A stretch of DNA of 64,000 nucleotides from Xenorhabdus griffiniae (GTDB taxonomy: Bacteria; Pseudomonadota; Gammaproteobacteria; Enterobacterales; Enterobacteriaceae). Under the pieces are notes generated by a model. It made no database searches, was not told where the DNA came from, and saw nothing but the letters and a program-made list of their open reading frames with translations. The translations under genes were made by a program, and so were the position numbers. Shown in pieces: positions 3,001 through 62,761 of this stretch; the stretch's first letter is position 1, and each line of letters starts with the position of its first letter. The stretch is from the NCBI RefSeq assembly GCF_037265215.1, contig NZ_CP147737.1, forward strand, positions 3,132,001 through 3,196,000, given 5' to 3'.

Positions 3001-6000
3001 AGCACCAGACCAGTGAACCACAATCAGGGGATCGTATTCTGCAATTTGCGACCATTGCCTTTGATACCTCGGTATCCGATATTTTCCCGACCCTGGCCGC
3101 CGGTGCGACACTGGTTTTGCGACCGCCCCATATTCGGATACCGGATATGACTTTTGTCACCTTCCTGCGTGAGCAGAAGATCACCATTATAGATATGCCG
3201 ACCGCCTTCTGGCACCTGTGGGTACAGGAGATGATGGCCGGCCGCAGCGGTTTTAGCCCCTATCTGCATACCCTGATTGTGGGCGGCGAAAAAGCAGAAT
3301 ATCGCCATTTAATCAGCTGGCTGTCTCAGCAGGAAACCCAATCCTGCCGTTGGATTAACTCTTATGGTCCTACCGAAACCACGGTGATTGCCACCACGCT
3401 GAAATTGGATCACCAAAATCCACCGTATCCCGAAGGGGTTATCCCGATTGGCTATCCACTGCCGAATACCCGTATTTATATTCTGGATACGCACGGCCGG
3501 CCGGTTCCTGTCGGCGTCAGTGGTGAAATTCATATCGGTGGCGCCGGTGTGGCCCGTGGTTACCTCAATCGTCCGGATTTAACCGCGGAAAAATTTGTGG
3601 CGGATCCATTTAGCACACAACCTGATGCCCGTATGTACAAAACCGGCGATCTGGGGCGCTGGTTACCCGATGGCGCAATTGAGTATCTGGGACGCAATGA
3701 TTTTCAAATTAAGATCCGTGGCTTTCGCATTGAACTGGGGGAAATTGAAACCCAACTGCTGGCTTACGAAGACGTCAGCGATGCCGTGGTGATCGCCCGT
3801 GAAGAAGAAAACGGTGACAAACGCTTAATTGCCTATGTGATCCCCAAAGCCGGCAGCACGCTAAAACCGGCGGAGTTACGTGAACACCTCAGTGCCCGCC
3901 TGCTGGAATATATGTTACCCCGTGCCTTTGTTATACTGGATGCTTTCCCGATGTCCGCCAACGGTAAACTGGATCGCAAGGCCCTGCCGGCACCGGATCA
4001 AAGCGCTATCGTCAGCCGTGAATATGAAGCACCACAGGGTGAAACTGAACAGAAACTGGCGGCAGTCTGGCAATCGCTGCTGGAACTGGAACAGGTCGGG
4101 CGCCATGACAATTTCTTCGAACTGGGCGGCCATTCCCTGCTGGTCGTCAGCCTGATCGAACAGTTGCGCCAGCAAGGGCTTTCTCTGGCGGTCAGCGCGG
4201 TCTTCGCTGCCCCTACCCTGGCGGCCATGAGCGCCCGCTTACATCAAAAACAAGATGCCGCGCTAGCGGTTATTCCGCCTAACCTGATCCGCGAAGACAG
4301 CCCGCAGATTACGCCCGCCATGCTGCCACTGGTGACATTAACCCAGGCCCAAATTGACCGTATTGTTGACCATGTCCCGGGCGGTGTCGCCAATATTCAG
4401 GATATTTACCCGCTTGGCCCCTTGCAGGAAGGCATTCTGTTCCACCATTTACTGACCGAAACCGGTGACACCTACCTTGAAAATATTCTGATGCACTTTG
4501 ACAACCGACCACGGCTGACGCGTTTCTTGCAGGCGTTGCAGCAGGTGATTGACCGGCACGATATCCAACGCAGTGCCTTCCACTGGCAGGAGCTGCCCAT
4601 TCCCGTGCAGGTGGTCTACCGTCATGCGCCCCTGCCGATCACAGAGCTGACGTTATCCGCCGGAGAACGTGCCGAAACCCAGCTACGGCGTCTGACCGAT
4701 CCGGACAGCATACGGTTAGATATTACTCAGGCGCCATTACTGGCTGCTTATATCGCCCGGGATCCTGACTCCGATCAATGGTGGTTAAGCCTGCTGCATC
4801 ACCATCTGGTGTGTGACCATCTGTCACTGGAAATCATTTTCAGTGAAGTGCAGGCACTGATCCTCGGAGAAGCCGCACACCTGCCCGCCCCATTGCCTTA
4901 CCGCAATTTTATCGCCCAGACCCGTCAGGTGCCGATTGAAGTGCATCAGGCTTATTTCCAGCAGTTACTGGGCGACGTGGAAGAACCGACGCTACCCTTT
5001 GGGTTACTGGATGTACAGGGAAACAGCCGCGATAAGCACGATAAAATCGTGGAAGATATTGTCACCTTAGATGAGGAACTGGCCCAACAGATCCGGGATT
5101 GCGCCCGTCAATTGGGGATCAGTGCGGCCGTGCTATTCCATGTCGCCTGGGCGCAGGTATTGGCACAGTGTAGTGGCCGTGAAGATGTGGTATTCGGTAC
5201 GGTGTTATTGGGCCGCTTACAGGGGGGGATGGGCGCTTCACAGGTGCTGGGGATGTTTATCAATACCCTGCCAGTCCGTATCCCGTTACAGGCCCGTACC
5301 GTAAAACAGGCGGTACAGGAAACCTACCAGCGCCTGAGTGAATTACTGGATCATGAGCAAACCCCTCTGGCGATTGCCCAGCGGTGCAGCGGCGTGCCGG
5401 CCTCATTACCACTGTTTAACAGCCTGCTGAATTTCCGTCACAGCCCGCGTGATGAGGAAGCGGCGCATTCATTGGCTTGGGACGGTATTCAGGTGCTGGA
5501 CAGTGAAGAGCGCAGTAACTACCCCTTATCCCTGGATGTGGACGATTTTGATGATGGATTTGCACTGACCGCACAATGCAGCCAGCAAATTAATCCGGTA
5601 CGCATTACTGCCTATATGAAGACAGCACTGGAAGGCATTGTGGCCGCGCTGCAATATGCGCCTGAGCAACCTATCCATGCTATCGATATCTTGCCACAGG
5701 CCGAACGTACCCAACTACTGGAAACATTTAACGATACCGTTGTTGAGTATCCGCAAGACGCCTTAATCCATCAACTGTTTGAACAGCAGGCAGCACGCAC
5801 ACCGGATGCAATTGCATTGGCCTTTGGTGAGAGCGAACTGAGTTATGCGGCACTAAACCGCCAGGCTAACCAACTGGCACACCAGCTGATTGCCGCGGGG
5901 GTACGTCCCGATGATCGCATCGCTATCTGTGTTGACCGCAGTCTGGAGTTGATTATTGGTTTGTACGCCATTCTTAAGGCGGGAGCCGGCTATGTTCCGC

Positions 6001-30362: not shown

Positions 30363-32411
30363 GTGAAAAGCAGCGCTATCAGCAACGCAACCCTAAGCTG
30401 GAATGAGCAGGGCACCCCCATTTCAGAGCAGTTTGATGATGTTTATTTTTCAAATCAAGATGGCTTGGAAGAAACATTATATGTATTTTTGAAAGGCAAT
30501 CATTTTCCTCAACGTTTTAATACACATTCCCGTCCAGAGTGTGTTATTGCAGAAACTGGATTCGGTACTGGATTGAATTTCCTGACACTTTGTCAATCTT
30601 TCTCTCATTTTAGACAACAATATCCTGAAGCTGTATTAAAACGGCTACATTACATCAGTTTTGAAAAATACCCATTAAAACCCATTGACCTGAAAACAGC
30701 ACATCAACGTTGGCCAGAACTGAAAACGTTTTCTGAGCAATTATGCCAACAATGGCCCTTACCACTGGCAGGCTGCCATAGATTAATCCTGGATAATGGC
30801 GCTATTACCCTGGATCTTTGGTTTGGCGATGTAAATGATCTATTACCGAAAATAAGTTCAAGCCTGACAGGGAAAATTGATGCCTGGTTTTTAGATGGTT
30901 TTGCACCAGCAAAAAATCCACAAATGTGGAGTGAACAGCTGTTCGCTGCAATGGCCAAATTTTGTCGTCCTGAAGGAACTTTTGCGACCTTTACTTCCGC
31001 CGGAACAGTCCGCCGAGGATTGCAGGCAGCAGGCTTTAATGTCACTAAGGTTAAAGGCTTTGGGCGTAAAAGAGAGATGCTAACTGGCACCTTATCTCCA
31101 TCAAGTGGCCCACTTCACTTACCTTATGCACCCTGGTTTTCTCGCAAAGCCGCTACCTGTACCGATGACATTGCCATCATCGGTGGAGGTATTGCCAGTG
31201 CATTAACCGCACTTGCCCTATTGCGCCGTGGCGCCAAAGTCACACTATATTGCCAGGATGAACAACCTGCCCAAAATGCATCCGGCAATCAACAAGGGGC
31301 CATTTATCCCCTATTGAATGGTAATAGTGATCCGTTAGAACGTTTCTTTACATCAGCATTTACTTTTGCCCGCCGTCAGTACGATCAATTAATTGACGAA
31401 AATGTATCGTTTGACCATCAATGGTGTGGTGTCAGCCAATTAGCTTATGATGAAAAAAGCGCAAATAAAATCAGCAAAATGCTACGGACAGCATGGCCAG
31501 AAGACATTGCGCTTGGTATGAACCGCAACCAATTAAGCCATGTCAGTGGAATAGATGTGAATTATGCTGGCATTCACTACCCACAGGGAGGATGGTTATC
31601 CCCTGCTCAACTCACTCAAGCGGTGATTAAACTGGCTGAACAACGCGGAATGCAGGTTTATTTTAATCATAAAGTAATTCAGCTTATCCAGGGTGAAAAC
31701 GGCTGGCAATTGCAGCTTGAACATAAGGAAAACCTGCAATGCAAGGCTCACAAAGTTGTCATTATTGCCAATGGCCACTGTCTGCCACAATTTGAACAGA
31801 CTAAAAAACTCCCTGTAACCGCTGTTCGCGGTCAGGTTAGCCATATTCCAACCACAGATAGCCTGAGCCAATTGAAAAGCGTACTGTGCTACGATGGCTA
31901 CATGACTCCCGTTAATCCTAATAACCAATATCACTGTATCGGTGCCAGTTATCAACGCAACCAGTTGGATACACGGTATTCGTCTATCGAGCAACAAGAA
32001 AACCGAGATCGTTTATTAAAATGTTTCCCTGATGTTGATTGGCCACAGGAAATTGACATTTCAGAAGAGAAGTCTCGTCAGGGTATCCGATGTGTCATCC
32101 GGGATCATATGCCAATGATCGGGAATGTTCCTGCTTTCAATGAGCTTATGGATAAATATGCAAATTTATCTCTGCAAATAAACACGAATAAGATGATTGA
32201 AGAATCTCCTTGTTATCCAGATTTATTTGTTCTTGGTGTGTTAGGTTCACGTGGATTATGTTCTGCTCCTTTAAGCGCAGAATTATTGGCTAGCCAAATT
32301 TTCGGGGAACCTCTCCCACTTGATGACGAAACATTAGCGGCTTTACACCCAAATCGCTTTTGGGTGAGAAAGCTATTACGTGGCAAAGCGGTAAGAACAG
32401 AAAAACCTTAA
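30363..32411 (+). CDS. mnmC: Bifunctional tRNA mnm5s2U34 biosynthesis protein MnmC
   Basis: A 682-residue fusion of two enzymes acting on the wobble uridine. The N-terminal methyltransferase (about 1-250) has the SAM loop [13 protein letters not shown] and [17 protein letters not shown]. The C-terminal FAD-dependent oxidoreductase begins near residue 270 with [20 protein letters not shown] and removes the carboxymethyl group before methylation. It starts with GTG at 30363. Divergent from fabB as in E. coli. Confidence 0.96.
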
Positions 32412-34673: not shown

Positions 34674-35225
34674 TTAATTAGCAAAGCGATCTTCCGGATA
34701 AGGAAAATGCTCTGCTTTTAGTGGAGGCGTATTGTAGAACGATTGCAGACCTTGAATAAAGCGTGCAGCTCGTGCAGGTATCCCATTTTCAAGGTATTGC
34801 ATGACTTGTACATGCACTTTCCGCTGAAAAACAAGGCGATCCGGCTCAAAATCACCTTCAAGGTTGTCACAACTGACATTAAAGGGAAATCCCGCAGCTA
34901 CACAGAATAACCACTCCAGCGATTGTGGCTTAATCTCTACCTTTTCAAACGCTTCCTGAGTTTGAGCGTCACGCCCATCAGGGCAGTACCAGTAACCAAA
35001 ATCGATCAGTTTGCGACGCTCTTCACCCGCAATACACCAATGAGAAATTTCATGTAATCCACTGGCATAAAATCCGTGGGCGAACACTATCCGGTTAAAG
35101 TCCACTTCATCATCTGCAGGCAGATAAATTGGCTCATCGTCACCTTTTATCAGACGAGTGTTGTAGTCATTACTAAAGCAATTATCAAAAATTTCAATCA
35201 GTTGTTGATAATGATGTGCGGTCAT
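34674..35225 (-). CDS. epmC: Elongation factor P hydroxylase EpmC (YfcM)
   Basis: A 183-residue enzyme that hydroxylates the modified lysine of elongation factor P after EpmA/EpmB action. The metal-binding HEISHWCIAG motif, the DFGYWYCPDGRDAQTQ segment and CDNLEGDFEPDR agree with E. coli EpmC. It is flanked by yfcA (21 bases upstream) and yfcL (21 bases downstream). Confidence 0.94.
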   Translation of the reverse strand: MTAHHYQQLIEIFDNCFSNDYNTRLIKGDDEPIYLPADDEVDFNRIVFAHGFYASGLHEISHWCIAGEERRKLIDFGYWYCPDGRDAQTQEAFEKVEIKPQSLEWLFCVAAGFPFNVSCDNLEGDFEPDRLVFQRKVHVQVMQYLENGIPARAARFIQGLQSFYNTPPLKAEHFPYPEDRFAN

Positions 35226-54940: not shown

Positions 54941-55540
54941 ACTGTTCTCCATATAATTATTTTTAGATATCAATTATCGCGCTGTATACCAGCTATTGCA
55001 CCCAATATGTAAAATATACTGCCTATCTTTCATTAATGGTAATCAAAAAGAGTGGTGATTATATAGGCAAACAGTTTGTTATACCTTATCTCTGACAAGA
55101 AAAACAGGTATACTGCGTTCCATTGGCCCCCTTAGTTAAATGGATATAACAAACAAAACAATCAACCACCTGATAAATATACAAAAAATAAACTTATAAA
55201 CATCTTAAAAGTACACAGATATGTACACAATCTCAAAACACTGCTCATTTTCTTATTTCTTAGTTTACTATCTATATCCTAATCTCAACAGTTTTTCATT
55301 GCTCAGTAATCAATCAATTGAATAATTTCAACTGGCAACTTTCTGTGAGTTTATTTTATACTCTTCAGCATTCTCCCAACCTCAAATCCCACCCCAATAA
55401 CCGCCTAAATTTCCCCCATCCATCCCCATATCCCTCCAAACTCACATTTTGCACATTTATTGAACTAGTAATTTGTTGAATTTCAACGCGTTCAACAGTC
55501 AGTTACCCGTTTTTAATGCACGAATCGGCCTATTGTGGGA
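54941..55540. other. AT-rich junction between mlaA and the prophage
   Basis: About 600 bases without a credible gene. It holds the mlaA promoter region, the argW 5' remnant (55126-55150), and phage-side DNA up to the first crossover site. No integrase or invertase gene is present. Confidence 0.7.
55126..55150 (+). pseudogene. argW: 5' fragment of tRNA-Arg(CCU) gene argW at prophage junction
   Basis: GCCCCCTTAGTTAAATGGAT and the following ATAAC match the first 25 bases of enterobacterial argW, with 20 bases (CTTAGTTAAATGGATATAAC) identical to the E. coli gene as I remember it and an acceptor strand compatible with GCCCCCT/AGGGGGC. The match stops at the D-arm/anticodon-stem border; no anticodon, T arm or 3' end follows. 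E. coli also has argW close to mlaA, and it is the attachment site of prophage KpLE1. The fragment therefore probably marks the prophage end. Confidence 0.75.
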
Positions 55541-56439
55541 TTTCATTAAACCTCGGTTTGGCAGAAACCCAGCGACTGGCGGAAAATGCTTTATCCAAAA
55601 AAGCGAATGGGGCAGATATTGAGGATAAAACAAAATTTATTGATAACATAGGGTTAAAAGATACTGTTAATAGGGCATATAACGCGTTAAACAAATACGC
55701 TAACGGTGCGGACATTACCGATAAATCGGTGTTTGTGAGCAACCTAAATTTCATGGACCAGGTAATTCGAACTGATCTGATTAACGGTAATCAACAACGT
55801 ATTCAGAGCGAGTTAATAGTAGATAATCGTCTAACTGTGACGAACGAAGTGTACTGTCAGTCGGGAAATGCAGCTATTGCATTGAAATCAACAAAAGGCG
55901 GTCCCCACATAGCGTACACTTGGAATAATTCCCAATGGCATGATGTGCGCTTTCCGGAAGGCAAAGGAACCGCCATCGTTTTAGGCGCTAATTGCTGGAT
56001 AACCGGGGATGGTTACCTGAAATTAGCCTCGCCCATTATCAAAATTTGGCGTGAGGGTAAATTTGAAACCAATAACGAGTCTGAAGGTGCTATCGTGGAG
56101 CGTTTGTCCGAGGGCGTTTACCTCATCAAAAACGTGCTGGGATTCAATGCCGATGCGGCATGGGGCGGTGTTGATGGTGGGGTTGATATACCGCTGTGCA
56201 AAAATAAATTGCCGCTAATTTGGGTAAACTATAAGGTGTTGCCGGATGGTTCTATCAAATTAATGACCTATCACCGTGAACATGCAGATGCCCCCGCATT
56301 CGCCAGAAATGTACGTGAGGGCTATGCCGACGGCGACCCAATTGATATTCCCAGTGGTAGATTTATTTCCGTTCGTGTACAAATGCCGGAAAATTCTATT
56401 TGGAATCAACAGCAACGGAAATTAGCTGAATCAAAATAG
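55516..56439 (+). CDS. Silent alternative tail-fibre C-terminal segment (inverted, promoterless)
   Basis: The frame from 55516 encodes 307 residues, but its first 14 are probably incidental: no ribosome binding site precedes the ATG and homology begins at the crossover site (N-L-G-L). Then come two units of the kind ALxKxANGADIxDKxxFVxN, the same motif as NGADIPNKSEFVKNLGL in the minus-strand fibre. The remainder (about 110-307) is a different receptor-binding tip, with GGVDIPLCKNKLPLIWVNY and MPENSIWN, resembling C-terminal domains of other phage tail proteins. It converges on the fibre assembly gene. It should be expressed only after inversion of the segment. Confidence 0.8.
   Translation: MHESAYCGISLNLGLAETQRLAENALSKKANGADIEDKTKFIDNIGLKDTVNRAYNALNKYANGADITDKSVFVSNLNFMDQVIRTDLINGNQQRIQSELIVDNRLTVTNEVYCQSGNAAIALKSTKGGPHIAYTWNNSQWHDVRFPEGKGTAIVLGANCWITGDGYLKLASPIIKIWREGKFETNNESEGAIVERLSEGVYLIKNVLGFNADAAWGGVDGGVDIPLCKNKLPLIWVNYKVLPDGSIKLMTYHREHADAPAFARNVREGYADGDPIDIPSGRFISVRVQMPENSIWNQQQRKLAESK
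55541..55566 (+). repeat. Serine-invertase crossover site 1 (gix/hix-like)
   Basis: Centred on AAACC-TC-GGTTT (55548-55559), the dyad core of Gin/Hin/Cin-type invertase sites. It is read as N-L-G-L codons in the fibre variant. Its partner, in inverted orientation, is at 57518-57543. Confidence 0.8.
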
Positions 56440-56444
56440 TGTTT

Positions 56445-56461
56445 AGGGGCACACAGCCCCT
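56445..56461. terminator. Hairpin between converging fibre variant and tail-fibre assembly genes
   Basis: AGGGGC and GCCCCT form a perfect 6 bp stem around ACACA, between the two stop codons. No T-run is present on either side, so it is a weak terminator candidate. Confidence 0.5.
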
Positions 56462-56465
56462 GTAT

Positions 56466-57059
56466 TTATTTCGGCTGTTCTGGCCATGAGATATCGGGCG
56501 CGGTAGCGCAATCCACCCGATTGAGCAGTACCCGATATTTGCGCCATTCGGTGAGTGCGGATTTTTCGGCGTCGGTTGCCATATCGAGGTCAACGGCGTC
56601 CTGATAAATATCAATTTTGGCTCTGGCGGTATCCAACAATTGCCGTTTCCGGGATTCCGCCTGTTGCTGTTCATGCTGGCGTTGTGCCTGAATATCTGTT
56701 ACCCACTGTTTGCCATTCCATTTATCAAACGGTGTTGCGGGTGCCTCTGGTGTTGTTTTCGACGGATAATCACCGAGTGCTGTAATCACCTGTGCGGCAC
56801 CTGTTTCAATACTGTAAACGGTTTTACCACGATGATCTGCGACGTACTCCCACGCGGACAAATCTGCCGTTCGGCAAATGGCATAACCCTGTTTGTGGTC
56901 ACCCGGCGCATCAATACACGAGTGAGCCGGAATCCCCAGACCGACGAGTAAAAACTCCACAGATGCAGAACTATATTCTCGCGTTTCGCTGTGATAATTA
57001 TAAACAGTAATATTACCTGCGACAGTGGCGATATGATTTTTGTCTAATTTTGCCGTCAT
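56466..57059 (-). CDS. Phage tail-fibre assembly chaperone (Tfa family)
   Basis: A 197-residue protein with a short N-terminal domain, SYE-like AWEYVADHRGKTVYS, and the C-terminal alpha-helical region ending YRVLLNRVDCATAPDISWPEQP, diagnostic for Caudovirales tail-fibre assembly proteins. It folds or trimerises the fibre tip and may remain attached. Its ATG shares one base with the fibre stop (TAATG). It lies inside the predicted invertible segment, paired with the currently expressed fibre. Confidence 0.92.
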   Translation of the reverse strand: MTAKLDKNHIATVAGNITVYNYHSETREYSSASVEFLLVGLGIPAHSCIDAPGDHKQGYAICRTADLSAWEYVADHRGKTVYSIETGAAQVITALGDYPSKTTPEAPATPFDKWNGKQWVTDIQAQRQHEQQQAESRKRQLLDTARAKIDIYQDAVDLDMATDAEKSALTEWRKYRVLLNRVDCATAPDISWPEQPK

Positions 57060-57988
57060 TATACTGCCCTCACAATGTAGTTAAATGCGATGTTTATGGG
57101 GCGGGTTTCCATTGCTGTGCGCACCGCACGGGATGCATCAAATATCCAATTTACGGCCCCATATCCTGTAATTTCAGTCGATGGTGTTAGTCCAGATGAC
57201 AGAACATGCCCCAATTGTGTGAATGGACCCGAGGCGCTGACACCCTGAAAAAGCTGCGTTCGCCCAAATGTTCCGACAATATTTTGAATCGCATCAATCT
57301 GAATCGATAATAGTTCTCGTCCGGCATCGTCGCCGGTATCGCCGTTCCAGCCGCGCAGAAATTTACCTCTCAAATCCGGCAATGTTAGTGATGGATATAC
57401 ACGCGCCAGCTCTGGATATTGTGCTGCGGTAAACGTAGCGCCGTTACATTGCATCCATCCAGCAGGCGGGGTTGCTAACGGCCACGGAATCGGTACGCCA
57501 ACGGGTAATGCCGAGCCTGCCGTTAAACCGAGGTTTTTCACAAACTCAGATTTGTTGGGGATATCTGCGCCGTTACGGGATTTTTCGAGGCGAGAGTTGG
57601 CATTGTCGTTGGCGTGTCGTAGGGCGTCGGTTGTGGATTTTGCAATACCGATTGCATCTACAAACAGCATCCACTCATTTTGCGACTTATCCGGTTGTTG
57701 ACCTCTAGTTTGTCGTTTAGCTGTATAGAATTGTCCTGCGTGTTGCACTACAGCATATTGTGGATAATCTACAGATGCATCCCACTCAGAAATTCCGCGT
57801 TGGGATAAATACATTAGCCATTGATCGGTGCGTTTGCCGATGGCATTAAACCATTCCATTGGTGGTTTTCCTGCCGTGCGATCAATGGTGACCCCCCAGC
57901 CACGCAGAACGTCAGGAAATGTTTCTATTTCCCCTGTTTTTGCATCATTGGCAAATATTTTGTAATCGGGTTTATTGATGATTGACAT
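57059..57988 (-). CDS. Phage tail fibre, expressed orientation, with tail-collar domain
   Basis: The 309-residue protein starts at 57988 (MSIINKPDYKIFANDA, AGGA upstream); the longer frame runs back into the previous gene. The N-terminal 150 residues are the attachment part (RGWGVTIDRTAGKPPMEWFN, WDASVDYPQYAVVQHAGQFY). The NGADIPNKSEFVKNLGL linker at about 137-153 is where the crossover site lies. Then comes a tail-collar fold (PVGVPIPWPLATPPAGWMQC, LTLPDLRGKFLRGWNGD) and a C-terminal tip ending FNYIVRAV. It overlaps the upstream DUF2612 gene by 17 bases. Confidence 0.9.
   Translation of the reverse strand: MSIINKPDYKIFANDAKTGEIETFPDVLRGWGVTIDRTAGKPPMEWFNAIGKRTDQWLMYLSQRGISEWDASVDYPQYAVVQHAGQFYTAKRQTRGQQPDKSQNEWMLFVDAIGIAKSTTDALRHANDNANSRLEKSRNGADIPNKSEFVKNLGLTAGSALPVGVPIPWPLATPPAGWMQCNGATFTAAQYPELARVYPSLTLPDLRGKFLRGWNGDTGDDAGRELLSIQIDAIQNIVGTFGRTQLFQGVSASGPFTQLGHVLSSGLTPSTEITGYGAVNWIFDASRAVRTAMETRPINIAFNYIVRAV
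57518..57543 (-). repeat. Serine-invertase crossover site 2 (gix/hix-like)
   Basis: On the minus strand the core reads AAAACCTCGGTTTA (57524-57537), matching the Mu gix core as I remember it, and is inverted relative to site 1. It encodes N-L-G-L in the expressed fibre. Confidence 0.8.
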
Positions 57989-58631
57989 TGATAATCCTCG
58001 TAAATTGACCGTCGCCAAAACCGAAAGCATGGCTATCATTTTCCCAACCGAAGGGATGGTCACTGTTAATAACAACAAATTGGTAGCGCACACCAATAGG
58101 CCGACTCAGGATGTCGAGTTTTAAAATGGCGTGTAATCGAAATGGAGTCAGGTAATTAGCAGGAACAACAACATTCATTGTCATGTCATAGTTATCGATG
58201 ACAAATGAATATTCCCCTAATAAGTGTTGTAGTGAATGTGTAATTCCGACAATGGTCGGTCGCTGGAAATTTTTGATAATTTTTGCTCGGATAAAAAAAC
58301 GATAATCCGAATCATCCAATCTGACGGATTTCTGTAACGAGTCACCATAGCGATAAAATAACCCATTATTAAATCCTAACGCGCCAGCAATACCCAGCCA
58401 CCCAAAATAATCTTTTGGTACAAATGATTTCATTGTCCTGCCAATTCCTACATGGCGACCAATGAGATCTAATCCATACCCAACTGATTTATCGATATCC
58501 AATATTTCGGCTAATTTTACGGCTGACTGGAAAACTATTTTGCTCTCAGAAAATAAAAGCTCGACGGTTTGTCGAGCCTTCGGTTTTCCTCTGTATTGCC
58601 ATATCAGAAAATCTTCGGGTTTTTTATTCAA
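57972..58631 (-). CDS. Phage tail protein, DUF2612 family (gpI/Mu gp48 position)
   Basis: A 219-residue protein between the baseplate J-like protein and the fibre, where P2 gpI or Mu gp48 sits. LAEILDIDKSVGYGLDLIGRHVGIGR near residue 40 and the terminal FGFGDGQFTRIIN fit the DUF2612 family. It probably connects baseplate wedge and fibre. The start is a TTG at 58631, after GGAGGTG, overlapping the J-like stop by 8 bases. Confidence 0.85.
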   Translation of the reverse strand: MNKKPEDFLIWQYRGKPKARQTVELLFSESKIVFQSAVKLAEILDIDKSVGYGLDLIGRHVGIGRTMKSFVPKDYFGWLGIAGALGFNNGLFYRYGDSLQKSVRLDDSDYRFFIRAKIIKNFQRPTIVGITHSLQHLLGEYSFVIDNYDMTMNVVVPANYLTPFRLHAILKLDILSRPIGVRYQFVVINSDHPFGWENDSHAFGFGDGQFTRIINVNHQ

Positions 58632-59748
58632 TCAACACCTCCACATTTTCAGGTTTAATGCGAGCGCATTGCCTAACTCCTATAGCGGCTATGTCAGAGT
58701 TGTTGACTGTGATTGATTTGATGTAAAAACCAGAAATAGAATTAACGTTACATGTTAACCGCATAGCATATACTGATTCACCAATAGCAAATTCAGTAGT
58801 AGCCAATGATTTTTTAATACCGTCAGTATCGATATCCTGAAATCCGTTTATGCGGTCAATGACAACCCTGACCTTGATATCAACCATCTCAGCGCGGTCG
58901 AATTTCACTGTTCTCTCTGTACCTGAGTAGTTACATGAACATGAGATGACTCCCATTAAGCCGCACCCGCCAACTTTCTTTTTGAGTATGGCTAATGCAA
59001 TGTCTTCATCTCGACCACCGATGACAACCGCATTCATAGAGTGAGGCGATACGCCATTTTTATCGGTCTGATTGGTGTCATTCTCATAAACGCGCGCCTG
59101 TTTCACATCTGGTAGGTCAAGTAGTGCCGCCTCTATTCCCTGCCTGTCGTCATGATTGTTGATGGAGTGTGAACGCATAAACCGAGTCAAGAAGTTGCCA
59201 TCTGTTTCCTCTTCACTGCCAGATTTAGCCTCTTTGGTTGTGATAATTTTTTCAATACCAACGATCACTGTAACAAGTTGTAGCTCTTGCTGGGCTTGCA
59301 GACTAAATGCGCCCAGTTCCTGACTGCGCAGAATGACGCGGGCTGAGCCGTTGTTATCTAACTTCGCTTCATTGAGAACTATCCATTTGATGCGGTTATT
59401 ATCTGTGAGCACCGTGCCTTTAGGAACAATAATGCCTGTAGCACCCGTCATCACCACGTCATCCAGATAGCTAAATTCAGCCCCCCGACGAACCAAACCC
59501 GCATACATCGCTCGTTGCTCTAACCATGCACCAGTCGCATTGTAGGGATCTAACATCTGTGCAATAAATGCAATGATCTGATTGATATTAGCTAATTCCT
59601 GAGAGAATAACCCCACCATCTGACCATCAGGAGAGTCAGCATCCAGATTAATATCCTCACCATAGATGCGTTTAAAACCTGTTTCTAGCCGTTGGTGAAT
59701 GTCGGACAGTTGGTCAATGACAATTCCTGTTTCAGTGATCTGGAGCAT
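58624..59748 (-). CDS. Phage baseplate J-like wedge protein (Mu gp47/P2 gpJ type)
   Basis: A 374-residue baseplate protein. The N-terminal GFKRIYGEDINLDADSPDGQMVGLFSQELA, followed by YNATGAWLEQRAMYAGLVRR, is the classic baseplate J/gp47 signature. A mid-region Val-rich beta stretch and a C-terminal IKVRVVIDRINGF domain follow. The start at 59748 has GAGG 9 bases upstream and overlaps the gp46-like gene by 17 bases. Confidence 0.9.
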   Translation of the reverse strand: MLQITETGIVIDQLSDIHQRLETGFKRIYGEDINLDADSPDGQMVGLFSQELANINQIIAFIAQMLDPYNATGAWLEQRAMYAGLVRRGAEFSYLDDVVMTGATGIIVPKGTVLTDNNRIKWIVLNEAKLDNNGSARVILRSQELGAFSLQAQQELQLVTVIVGIEKIITTKEAKSGSEEETDGNFLTRFMRSHSINNHDDRQGIEAALLDLPDVKQARVYENDTNQTDKNGVSPHSMNAVVIGGRDEDIALAILKKKVGGCGLMGVISCSCNYSGTERTVKFDRAEMVDIKVRVVIDRINGFQDIDTDGIKKSLATTEFAIGESVYAMRLTCNVNSISGFYIKSITVNNSDIAAIGVRQCARIKPENVEVLIE

Positions 59749-60094
59749 AAGTATTGACCTCGTTTTTTTGTCCGTAAATATCAATGTAGGTCACGCCAAT
59801 CTGTGACTGGCGGTTATCTGCGCTGATTTTGATATCGAAGTAGGTAATTTCTGTCACACCATCCGTATTTAGTACAGCGCCTTTCAATTCAGATTCCATT
59901 GCCATCAAATTAGGATTTTTACGCAGGTAATCAAACCAGCGGATACCGTGATCGGGATTCAAAAACCAGTCATTGTGCAGGGAAAGCAGCCGGGTTTTTA
60001 CTGACTGCGCGATAGCTTCGGAGGTTGTAGCGTAGTCATTGCGACCGTTCCCGAATGTCCAGTCATGATGATTATCTAACCGCCTCACTCTCAT
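59732..60094 (-). CDS. Phage baseplate protein, Mu gp46/gpW type
   Basis: A 120-residue lysozyme-like-fold baseplate component (gp25/gpW/gp46 group): AIAQSVKTRLLSLHNDWFLNPDHGIRWFDYL is the conserved core, followed by a beta stretch. It joins the wedge to the hub. ATGA overlap with the preceding spike gene. Confidence 0.87.
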   Translation of the reverse strand: MRVRRLDNHHDWTFGNGRNDYATTSEAIAQSVKTRLLSLHNDWFLNPDHGIRWFDYLRKNPNLMAMESELKGAVLNTDGVTEITYFDIKISADNRQSQIGVTYIDIYGQKNEVNTYAPDH

Positions 60095-60759
60095 TTATTT
60101 GGCCTCCCCGTATTGCCGCCGTGTGAATCAGGGTGCGTGTGGTTTTCAACATCCACCCCACCACCAATAACCCTAGCCGCTGTGATTGTTCCACTGGATT
60201 CACTGTTGCCGCTGGTCTGATTCCAATTTCCGGCCTGTTGGTGATTTCCGGTTTGTTTACTATTCCCCAGATGTTCAATATCACCCAGAATGGTGATTGT
60301 CCCTTGTGTCATACGAATGAACGTTGAGCCGTCATCCGTTTGCATGGAAGCGCCGCCATGAAAGAAATCAAGGATTTTTTTAGGCTGACTGCAAATGCCA
60401 GGGATAAATGACGCATCGGAATAGTCATGCAATCGCGCATCCAGTGGTACGGATTTATTACCCGTGGCATACCAGCCATCGATGCAACGCTCTGAGAATA
60501 TCGCCAGCCCCTCATCGCCGGATGTCACAGGTACAGTGAAACAGAATCCACCTGCTCGCGGGAACTGGACAACAACATCCACCAGCGGTGGCAATTCTAG
60601 TACCTCACCATTGCGCAATATTTGGTTAATCATCAGTTCGATTGTGGCAGTGTGGCCATTAAATGAGACAACGCGGGCAGGTAAGGCGGTATGGATATCA
60701 AGGCGCTCGTTTTCCGCTTTTCTATCCAAGACATCAAGCAGTGTTGGGTATTTGTCCAT
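60091..60759 (-). CDS. Central tail spike, Gp138-like membrane-puncturing protein
   Basis: A 222-residue protein starting at 60759 (MDKYPTLLDVLDRK), by comparison of lengths and because it overlaps the hub gene 3' end by only 26 bases. An N-terminal OB-fold-like domain (about 20-105, ARVVSFNGHTATIELMI, VTSGDEGLAIFSERCIDGW) resembles the Gp138 N-terminal domain of phage phi92. A Gln/Asn/Ser/Gly-rich beta-helix stalk follows, and a tip with ENHTHPDSHGG, an HxH arrangement like the iron-binding spike apex of gpV/Gp138 proteins. Confidence 0.85.
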   Translation of the reverse strand: MDKYPTLLDVLDRKAENERLDIHTALPARVVSFNGHTATIELMINQILRNGEVLELPPLVDVVVQFPRAGGFCFTVPVTSGDEGLAIFSERCIDGWYATGNKSVPLDARLHDYSDASFIPGICSQPKKILDFFHGGASMQTDDGSTFIRMTQGTITILGDIEHLGNSKQTGNHQQAGNWNQTSGNSESSGTITAARVIGGGVDVENHTHPDSHGGNTGRPNK

Positions 60760-61585
60760 CTTTCTTTTCCACCTTCTGATATTTTCCACCAATGCAGGTG
60801 ATTTTGGTTGTCCAGTTGTCACCCATGAAATCGCCGGAGTGTTCTAAGGCAGTAACTTTGTAATCACCGCTATATTCAGGAATAATTGACTGAACCCGCA
60901 CCAGTCCGCCTATCCGCATAACCGGATTTAGTAAACAACTCACTGATAATCCATCATCGGTTTTCTCTGGACTGCCAATCATTCCCGCCTCCTGAGACAG
61001 AACGAACCCCTCGTTATCGGCGAGCACCTTACTTTTAGGTAATACAGTCATGTTGCCATCCTGCACTGACCAGTCAGCGCCGTTATTACGGGCGATTTTG
61101 TGCATAATGTCGCGTGCATTTCCGGTTAGAACTTTGCCGCGCGGCAGTGCTCTGTCTTTCGGTAAATCCACCACACCATTACCAACCCTCATCGATCTGG
61201 TGGCCTCAGCCAGAATACTGGTATCAGTCGCACCCGCCGCCAACGTTTTATTGACCAATGCGCCCGTGTACGCTTCGTAGCCATCACCGCACGTCAACTG
61301 GATAATGAAGTCCAGCCCATCCCGCTGTGTTATCGCCTCAATGATGTCACCCATGTAGATTACTCGAAGTTCTTCATAACCGACTGCCAGACTGACACGG
61401 TTATAAATTTTACTGGTAATTAAATTGCGATGTGAGGGATTGAGGTTCCACACTTGGATTGTGGCCGGATTTGGTTCGCTACCAATGGTTTTAGATATTT
61501 CGAAGGCGACTCTCAGATTAGTAATTTCAATAGACTCTTTAGTGTTGCCGATATTCAGTTTAACCTGTCGTCCGAATTGCCTCAT
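60734..61585 (-). CDS. Phage baseplate hub protein (gpD/gp44-like position)
   Basis: A 283-residue protein starting at 61585 (MRQFGRQVKLNIG, GAGG upstream). The early part has a beta-rich NLRVAFEISKTIGSEPNPATIQVWNLN segment, followed by VSLAVGYEELRVIYMGDI and a GNARDIMHKIARNNGADWSVQDG core, as in late-control/hub proteins that connect the tape measure to the spike. The assignment rests partly on its place just before the spike gene. Confidence 0.78.
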   Translation of the reverse strand: MRQFGRQVKLNIGNTKESIEITNLRVAFEISKTIGSEPNPATIQVWNLNPSHRNLITSKIYNRVSLAVGYEELRVIYMGDIIEAITQRDGLDFIIQLTCGDGYEAYTGALVNKTLAAGATDTSILAEATRSMRVGNGVVDLPKDRALPRGKVLTGNARDIMHKIARNNGADWSVQDGNMTVLPKSKVLADNEGFVLSQEAGMIGSPEKTDDGLSVSCLLNPVMRIGGLVRVQSIIPEYSGDYKVTALEHSGDFMGDNWTTKITCIGGKYQKVEKKDGQIPNTA

Positions 61586-61898
61586 GCCATGCCTCTTTAT
61601 CGACAAAATAGATTTTTAGCCGCTTTCCCATTTCATTACGCCGGACTGAATTTATCCCTAATCCAGAGCCATCACTCATTAATATGATGAATGGTAGGTT
61701 TTTAGTGAAAAGCACAGGGCTGTTTACCGCCATCCCGTACCGTTGGGCGATGTAGTAATCTGAGTTGGTATCCAGTAAATCAAACTGCCACCCGTTAGAA
61801 ATTGAATTGAAATACAGGGTAAATTTTAGATTCATTTCAAACAGCGTGAACGATTGCTCCTGAACTTCGTCAGTTGAAACGGGTATTTCATATATCAT
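61560..61898 (-). CDS. Small phage baseplate plug-like protein
   Basis: A 112-residue mostly beta protein (MIYEIPVS, NLKFTLYFNSISNGWQFDLLD) that resembles the baseplate plug proteins found next to Dit-like and hub genes in contractile-tailed phages (Pam3 gp18 type). The family call is from memory of similar gene neighbourhoods. Its ATG shares one base with the stop of the preceding gene, after a GGAGG. Confidence 0.65.
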   Translation of the reverse strand: MIYEIPVSTDEVQEQSFTLFEMNLKFTLYFNSISNGWQFDLLDTNSDYYIAQRYGMAVNSPVLFTKNLPFIILMSDGSGLGINSVRRNEMGKRLKIYFVDKEAWHEAIRTTG

Positions 61899-62698
61899 CA
61901 GTTACCTCCCAAAAGCCCATTCAAAAACCGTTTAGTCGCACCGATAGGATCACCAGCCATTTCATTAATCTTAAAAACAGCAGAGGATTTTCCATCTACC
62001 AATTTTGGTTGGGTTTTTCCCATATTGACCTTGTTCGATGCTGATTTTTTCAGATTAGGGTGTAATCCCTGAGCTGTCTGCGTTTCCACGATAAAGATCT
62101 CGCGTAATGTAAGACTAAACTCAGCCGCACCCTCATTCATTTGGGTTACGCTAATACTAACAATCATCATGTTTTTATACTGTTTCAGGCCAGTCATAAC
62201 AGTAATGGGTTCGCCGAGTTTTTGGAGGTTCAATAAGTCGTTATAGGCTGAGCCGACCCTATCCAGTGTTCGCGAGCTGTCATTAGCACGCCCCTGATAA
62301 TTAGGTAGCCACGGCGCTACAGGTCGACTATAACCGACTTGTTCCAGTATGGATGCGCCCATTGACATATAACGATTTACCATAGATTCAGCCTGTTTTG
62401 TCATAGCTCTGATTTCTACAGGAAGTGGGTATTTATCCAGCGCAGCGGAAAAATCACCACCAACTAGCGCATTGAAGTACTGAGGAGGTTGGTAACCCAC
62501 CATAATTCCGGCAATAGTTATTTCTTTCGGTTCCAGAACGGCATGATCAGCAATTGCTGCCCCTGATTCGATAGGGTTCTCAGTAATGCGTAAATTCGAA
62601 CTGTGATTCTCTATAACCACACAGTCAAATTGAAACTCACCTATAGAGCGCGTTATTACTGATGCGCGTGTGGTGTTAAAACCGCTGAGTAAGTCCAT
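61898..62698 (-). CDS. Phage baseplate/distal-tail (Dit-like) protein
   Basis: A 266-residue protein; ATG 62698 is preferred to the TTG at 62710. The N-terminal half carries a beta-rich GEFQFDCVVIENHSSNLRIT, followed by ITAIAG-type ITIAGIMVGY, as in distal-tail proteins that contact the tube, followed by LGEPITVMTGLKQYKNMMIVSISVTQ. The C-terminal third is poorly ordered and Lys-rich. First gene of the visible baseplate run, downstream of the HicA-like gene. Confidence 0.7.
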   Translation of the reverse strand: MDLLSGFNTTRASVITRSIGEFQFDCVVIENHSSNLRITENPIESGAAIADHAVLEPKEITIAGIMVGYQPPQYFNALVGGDFSAALDKYPLPVEIRAMTKQAESMVNRYMSMGASILEQVGYSRPVAPWLPNYQGRANDSSRTLDRVGSAYNDLLNLQKLGEPITVMTGLKQYKNMMIVSISVTQMNEGAAEFSLTLREIFIVETQTAQGLHPNLKKSASNKVNMGKTQPKLVDGKSSAVFKINEMAGDPIGATKRFLNGLLGGN

Positions 62699-62761
62699 AG
62701 TCAGATCCAATAAAAAGGCCGCATTTGCGACCTGTTATTCAGTAATGTTATATGGCAGAAA

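Follow-up and report, generated by a model that had tools for sequence, protein, structure and literature searches.

How can a prophage that encodes no invertase switch the tip of its tail fibre, and why does the same switch recur in one genome under tails of unrelated types? These questions are raised by a locus in Xenorhabdus griffiniae ID10, an insect-killing bacterium. The locus lies in the window analysed here, a stretch of 64,000 nucleotides (contig NZ_CP147737.1, positions 3,132,001 to 3,196,000; positions up to 64,000 refer to the window below, larger ones to the genome). It contains two fibre tips and an assembly gene between inverted sites of the type known as gix in phage Mu. With high though not complete confidence, we regard it as a gix-type cassette switch served in trans by a Gin-family invertase, and consider that recombination between such sites of different prophages has inverted about 209 kb of the chromosome.

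The window cassette is bounded by two copies of the core AAACCTCGGTTT, in inverted orientation and 1977 bp apart. Site 1 (55548..55559, + strand) forms the outer, left end of the cassette and has the same core as Mu gix, whereas site 2 (57525..57536, - strand) lies at the joint of the fibre stem and the expressed tip. The minus strand of site 2 contains AAAACCTCGGTTTA, which agrees with Mu in 14 of 14 bases; Mu has an exact copy at 31961 and an inverted one at 35019. Reading of the window and a genome-wide core search confirmed the positions, inverted orientation and spacing given for the cores in a first-pass annotation, and its likening of site 2 to the Mu gix core holds for both Mu sites, down to the two central bases. 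The expressed fibre is an open reading frame (ORF; 57988-57059, -) composed of a constant stem of 151 residues belonging to the window prophage (57537..57988, -) and, in frame with it, tip A (57059..57536, -), which has 158 residues from an N-L-G-L motif onwards and a Collar domain (Pfam). The tail fibre assembly (chaperone) gene that pairs with tip A follows as ORF 57059-56466 (56466..57059, -; Caudo_TAP in Pfam, phrog_105 in PHROGs) and is, as had been said, the only one in this cassette. Convergent on it, again as described earlier, runs ORF 55516-56439 (+), within which the silent tip B (55549..56439, +) comprises 296 codons from N-L-G-L and carries a Phage_tail_C_2 domain, with no fibre stem upstream. 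Tail fibre and assembly families of PHROGs were also assigned to the cassette ORFs.

Both the convergent ORF and the fibre ORF read the core in the same phase, as the shared N-L-G-L codons that had been proposed. This common phase, together with natural examples at 3469 and 3997 kb (see below), supports the proposed in-frame exchange of the fibre tip. No Shine-Dalgarno-like stretch is evident by eye ahead of the ATG at 55516, in line with the suggestion that the variant lacks a ribosome binding site. Its description as promoterless fared less well: it is compatible with a promoter scan of 55000-58700, which gave 7 promoter-like sites against 9.4 expected in shuffled sequences and nothing above chance, but such a scan does not amount to proof, and one promoter-like site (55558-55587, +) falls just inside the silent tip. 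The interpretation best supported for the window is an invertible fibre-tip cassette of gix type with in-frame exchange; from the sequence we infer that this locus itself switches.

Since the fibre genes read the core as N-L-G-L, the cores might be nothing but a conserved protein motif of fibres. The distribution of cores makes this scarcely credible. The ID10 genome (one contig, 4,767,870 bp) holds 13 exact cores against 2 in a reversed-sequence control, and ten of the 13 form five inverted pairs, at 3187548/3189525 (the window), 3258678/3260655, 3469338/3471310, 3997195/3999167 and 4744301/4746273, with spacings of 1977, 1977, 1972, 1972 and 1972 bp, respectively; both the number of cores and their inverted pairing thus exceed chance. 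Exact copies of the 12 bases are likewise present at outer ends where there is no stem to be encoded, namely beside an invertase gene (4746273), beside a sheath gene (3260655) and near a prophage attachment (att) site (3999167). Furthermore, the core is inverted relative to its partner in 5 of 5 pairs and equals Mu gix including the two central bases. The unpaired cores at 1884754, 2679897 and 2972427 were not counted as cassettes; the last has a similar counterpart in X. griffiniae VH1 and looks like chance. One core without a partner site lies in the fibre gene of a lambda-like prophage (G000:C1:2679179-2680384, L041).

Cores are not restricted to ID10. Thirty genomes of the genus contain 117 of them, against 32 in the reversed control, and only one genome (G001) lacks them altogether. 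Where neighbouring cores are no more than 10 kb apart, 31 pairs are inverted and 5 direct, with plus-minus order in 30 of the 31 inverted ones. A scan of named genomes for tip B gave 12 loci, three of which (in two Photorhabdus and in X. griffiniae VH1) have an inverted pair, the other nine having no core within the stretch examined; the Photorhabdus loci, in P. tasmaniensis and P. luminescens (L055:6000-7633 and L056:5358-7250), combine inverted core pairs with related tips. Some draft contigs (e.g. G002:C87, C171, C174 and C188) start about 40-50 bases ahead of a core, as if the assembly had broken there.

The five ID10 cassettes serve three unrelated tail types, as judged with 36 Mu and 29 P2 proteins as probes: that of the window prophage (prophage W), a Mu type at 3456-3470 and 3985-3998 kb, and a P2 type, the latter in a prophage at 4741-4754 kb, where a gin gene adjoins the cassette, and in the two halves of a split locus at 3261-3269 and 3471-3479 kb. 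The cassettes themselves fall into two sets that cut across these types. The window cassette and that at 3258678 show 0 differences in 1989 bp, and those at 3469338, 3997195 and 4744301 differ from one another at 1 or 2 of 1984 bases. Identity within a set is therefore 99.9-100%, across different tail types, and the two sets are about 94.5% alike over 1616 alignable bp. In contrast, the flanks beside the identical cassettes at 3189525 and 3260655 have only 19 bp in common, and the two P2-type flanks match each other at 71% in their DNA. There are two exceptions: the outer flanks of prophage W, 3258678 and 3999167 are related (95-100%), the one in the window (55381..55547) matching that of both Mu-tail prophages at 95% over 177 bp including the core, and the first 65 bp of the window stem recur in the Mu-type stem. 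Near-identical cassettes between mostly different flanks argue for recent movement between unrelated loci and prophages, with borders at or near the sites; to judge from these comparisons, fibre-tip cassettes have moved recently between prophages. Among 22 cassettes compared (plus-minus neighbours in the fetched loci, a subset of the genus), evidence that unrelated loci share a cassette was obtained only for the five of ID10. Sharing between species was considered and rejected, as cross-species pairs reach at most 84% in this set. Two contigs of genome G027 carry a cassette pair identical over 1920 bp.

The cassettes also provide natural examples of both orientations. The Mu-type stems at 3469 and 3997 kb are the same DNA (2350 bp identical; first mismatch at 5423 bp), and this stem is joined to tip B at 3469 kb (391-aa ORF) and to tip A with the assembly gene at 3997 kb (251-aa ORF). 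One cassette type is thus found on one stem in opposite orientations in two sister prophages (3469338 and 3997195), which answers for these loci the earlier call to look for both forms. The Mu-like tails do not imply that the two prophages arrived by Mu-type transposition. Such an origin was discarded because they are located at tRNA genes with att repeats and begin on the left with an integrase-like ORF (388 aa) that weakly matches P2 Int; moreover, no matches to Mu A or B were found over the length of either prophage at E 1e-4 to 1e-3.

Two of the cassettes mark the joints of a larger rearrangement. We read 3.2607-3.4693 Mb (about 209 kb) as a recent chromosome inversion with its joints at cassettes, since four lines of evidence converge on it: the att sites, GC skew, the gene order of relatives and strain VH1. 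At tRNA-Met, the Mu-tail prophage is flanked by direct att copies at 3950393 and 3999549 (a span of 49.2 kb), core 3999167 lying 371 bp from its att. Its sister at tRNA-Lys has its left end at 3421836 (+), with the integrase-like ORF adjoining, and its right att fragment at 3258276 on the opposite strand, followed by tRNA-Val; the att sites are now inverted and separated by 163 kb. For 371 bp, as far as att, the tRNA-Lys prophage has an outer flank identical to that of the tRNA-Met copy. The tail of the tRNA-Lys prophage enters the 3469-kb cassette, beyond which P2-type genes H, I, J, W and V follow on the opposite strand, and beyond the 3260-kb cassette stand FI, FII, E, U, D and ogr with a 1239-aa ORF in the position of T. 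Reversing 3260661-3469344 in silico gives a 49.9-kb prophage with direct att copies, alike in length to its 49.2-kb sister, and one contiguous P2-type locus.

Comparison with 29 relatives is consistent with this reconstruction. Stretches on the gltX side and the mtnA side lie on opposite strands and 0.6-2.0 kb apart in 19 of 19 relatives with both (the second is lacking in ten), and on the same strand, 161 kb apart, in ID10. Similarly, the ecotin-aqpZ and queH stretches are on opposite strands and 13-34 kb apart in 15 of 15 relatives that have both on one contig (14 are uninformative), and on one strand, 212 kb apart, in ID10. The names of these flanking genes, and of the che-locus neighbours below, are our own reading of the ORFs. 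In VH1 the P2-type locus is on one contig; its sheath-side likeness to ID10 starts within 5 bp of the core, and its stem-side likeness breaks off 26 bp before the ID10 core, at a point where the fibre shafts diverge. GC skew of chromosomal DNA is negative on both sides of the interval (-0.074 and -0.027 on the left, -0.063 on the right) and positive within it (+0.065), with single 10-kb stretches deviating (for instance, +0.081 at 3222 kb, -0.080 at 3422 kb and +0.067 at 3522 kb).

The P2-type locus divided in this way is that of xenorhabdicin, a bacteria-killing tail cluster: P2 genes V, W, J, I, H and FI to D, with conserved genes on either side, identify the xenorhabdicin locus xnp1 at 3471-3479 and 3261-3269 kb, and do not identify the window locus as such. 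Apparently, a single gix-by-gix event explains the split. The published explanation differs, in that the arrangement of xnp1 in ID10 is attributed, in the portion of that paper available, to being 'probably due to transposition events' (PMC11566119); alternatively, a wrong join could be responsible, as assemblers can be misled by 2-kb repeats. However, the 209-kb interval shows a block reversal of GC skew and is bordered at either end by one half of the locus, the two halves facing opposite ways. This fits an inversion and not a transposition. In addition, no ORF of at least 110 aa lies between the joint cassettes and the neighbouring phage genes. With regard to a wrong join, the two joint cassettes differ from each other, and a simple swap of identical repeats does not give the structure. 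The assembly (CP147737.1) was made with Unicycler from Illumina and Nanopore reads, 432x in all, and is circular, according to the available portion of the same paper, whose xnp1 figure was built on this assembly and is no independent check of the join (PMC11566119). Taken together, a transposition or misassembly appears very improbable.

A more serious alternative holds that the gix sites are relics, and that the 209-kb inversion and the identity of the cassettes both arose by homologous recombination from one 2-kb cassette to another. The cassettes are indeed long near-identical repeats whose likeness gene conversion could maintain, and a conservative site-specific exchange swaps cassettes and does not alone multiply them. 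Against this, each joint cassette is pure to one set: 3258678 matches the window in 1989 of 1989 bases, and 3469338 is 1-2 of 1984 bases off its own set, whereas a homologous crossover between different sets would leave hybrids. Moreover, the shared sequence stops at or near the sites, as the 19 bp common beside 3189525 and 3260655 illustrate. We therefore consider homologous recombination unlikely, if less so than transposition or misassembly, and favour exchange at the gix-type sites. In the P2 annotation, V-to-G and FI-to-D form separate operons; both halves of the ID10 xenorhabdicin locus may therefore still be expressed.

Which enzyme might act on these sites? Prophage W extends over 46.8 kb between 23-bp direct repeats at genome 3187128 (55128..55150 of the window, +) and 3233911, in normal direct att order. 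Its right att falls outside the window and is adjoined by a Phage_integrase ORF (3232537-3233754). The same prophage has its baseplate and tail genes, among them DUF2612, baseplate J and hub, at 57972..62710 (-); its DUF2612 protein most resembles that of Erwinia phage LS-2018a (60%), followed by Proteus phages and, further off, by those of Aggregatibacter such as Aaphi23. Of the serine recombinases detected across the ID10 genome, none lies in prophage W, so an enzyme for the window cassette would act in trans. The earlier suggestion to look through the genome for a Gin/Hin/Cin-type invertase proved fruitful, with two intact genes, both outside the window prophage, and the doubt whether any serine invertase exists in the genome is thereby removed. 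These Gin relatives (4746341-4746931, 66% to Mu Gin; 1927074-1927661, 67%) both have the catalytic Ser9 and Resolvase and HTH_7 domains. The first lies 57 bp past site 4746273, beside the 4.744-Mb cassette, the only one with an adjoining invertase gene. The second (L027), among chemotaxis genes and with no evident prophage around, has cheZ on one side and, on the other, an alsT-like gene after which comes flhB. The other serine recombinases of ID10 are distant (3819739-3820266, 35%) or in pieces (1091273-1091746 and 1092943-1093032).

The prophage that carries gin also has a rearranged gene order, its U-T-E-FII-FI block being turned round between gin and D relative to P2 (G000:C1:4746945-4752689, L040). 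U and T follow gin the same way in G027:C119 (L112), while L113 and L115 have the normal order, with FI after gin. In three cassettes of G027 (L109, L110 and L111), a gin fragment (46 residues matched, frames of 79-105 aa) lies beside the outer core; intact gin is found at two other places in that genome.

Either Gin relative is possible as the acting enzyme in ID10. Genus-wide, the resident gene is the better candidate. In G008 the resident che-locus gene is the only invertase match in the genome, yet xnp1 has an inverted core pair; and at least two cores lie between the xnp1 flanks in 12 of the 15 relatives with the locus on one contig. The che-locus position is conserved in most of the genus: among 30 invertase loci fetched from the genus, 22 (L064-L085) have cheZ, alsT or flhB adjoining. 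Of the eight that do not, five lie about 100 bp or less from a core and one 1.7 kb away, and two (G023:C199 and G026:C45) have no core on the same contig. G024 (82% complete) is the sole genome of the 30 with no invertase match at all. Several xnp1 loci have three or four cores (L116 of G020, +++-; L118 of G011, ++--; L117 of G026, +--), which could give more than two fibre forms.

These elements suggest a mechanism. A Gin-family invertase encoded elsewhere, at 4.746 Mb, by the resident cheZ-flhB gene or by both, would exchange strands at the centre of the inverted cores that enclose tip A with its assembly gene and, on the opposite strand, tip B. The cassette would turn round and the constant stem be fused in frame to one tip or the other. 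With four other cassettes bearing the same sites, the enzyme could also join a site in one prophage to a site in another. A single exchange of this sort, between the stem-side site of the tRNA-Lys Mu-tail prophage and the sheath-side site of the P2-type xenorhabdicin locus, would at once invert about 209 kb, split the xenorhabdicin locus and leave the prophage att sites 163 kb apart and inverted, and repeated events between prophages could carry whole cassettes from one to another. A broader proposition, to which we give slightly less than an even chance, is that the host-encoded invertase at cheZ-flhB serves gix sites over the prophages and the xenorhabdicin tailocin as a genome-wide exchange network, in which tips are flipped and traded between unrelated tails at the cost of now and then inverting part of the chromosome, thereby splitting loci and trapping prophages where they are.

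The sites, frames, five cassettes, their identity, both orientations, the inverted chromosome and the intact invertase genes can be read directly from the DNA. By comparison, we infer rather than observe that an invertase catalysed the events, which enzyme it was, and that inversion continues in living cells, and this last point counts among those that weigh against the switch as proposed. The flipped window fibre, with the window stem on the silent tip, is absent from all genomes compared, and VH1 carries other tips at the window locus. The VH1 homologue is 90% alike over 3.9 kb on the stem side and 88% over 181 bp on the outer side, its cassette interior being alike just in a 597-bp stretch of tip B (85%); at this locus (L104:191-2062), the window stem and outer flank are kept around a different tip pair. 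Sites and enzymes do not always go together either: G001 has invertase matches yet zero cores, and G026 has three cores with a best invertase match just 44% identical. The three remaining xnp1 loci have one core (G014) or none (G004 and G021). Finally, the ID10 assembly is a single snapshot, and 2-kb repeats can be spots prone to assembly failure.

As a kind, the switch is known. The ID10 system shares with the Gin/Hin/Cin/Pin family inverted exact cores with a fixed central dinucleotide, a serine invertase in the genome and in-frame exchange of tips. It is closest to the G segment of Mu in its 12-bp core and central bases, inverted sites within fibre genes, convergent tips and Gin relatives at 66-67%. 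In Mu, however, gin lies beside the segment and each tip has its assembly gene (S-U and S'-U' in the Mu annotation), whereas the window prophage has no invertase and each ID10 cassette has one assembly gene. Action in trans has a precedent in the P segment of Escherichia coli e14 (PinE, PinQ), where a 1.8-kb fibre segment is flipped by PinQ of prophage Qin, as stated in the accessible part of the report (PMC12529663). There, one segment is concerned, with a repeat that, as printed, differs from the ID10 core, in contrast to five cassettes, three tail types and recombination between prophages in ID10.

Inversion within tailocin fibre loci is likewise familiar, from carotovoricin (through citation in the parts of the literature available) and from xenorhabdicin. 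In X. bovienii, sister strains are distinguished by xnp1 fibre inversions of 4.6 kb and 3 kb; as far as the accessible part of that report goes, no xenorhabdicin locus has an invertase, invertase genes lie elsewhere in 97 of 97 genomes, multi-site recombinases are suggested, and site and enzyme are unnamed (PMC13280938). To this, the present data add that gix cores bound the segment in 12 of 15 relatives and that an invertase resides at the che locus, thus offering a recombination site and two candidate enzymes for the reported inversions. For the split locus of ID10, a single site-specific inversion would take the place of 'transposition'. A literature search gave no title or abstract opening on gix sites in Xenorhabdus, with many subscription papers outside its coverage. 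In comparison with Mu and e14, what is new is a cassette without an invertase of its own, with one assembly gene and with five sister copies over three tail types: a site network shared by several prophages, with traffic of cassettes and a chromosome-scale by-product. It suggests that fibre tips, which decide the binding of phages and tailocins, move between unrelated tails by site-specific recombination within one cell.

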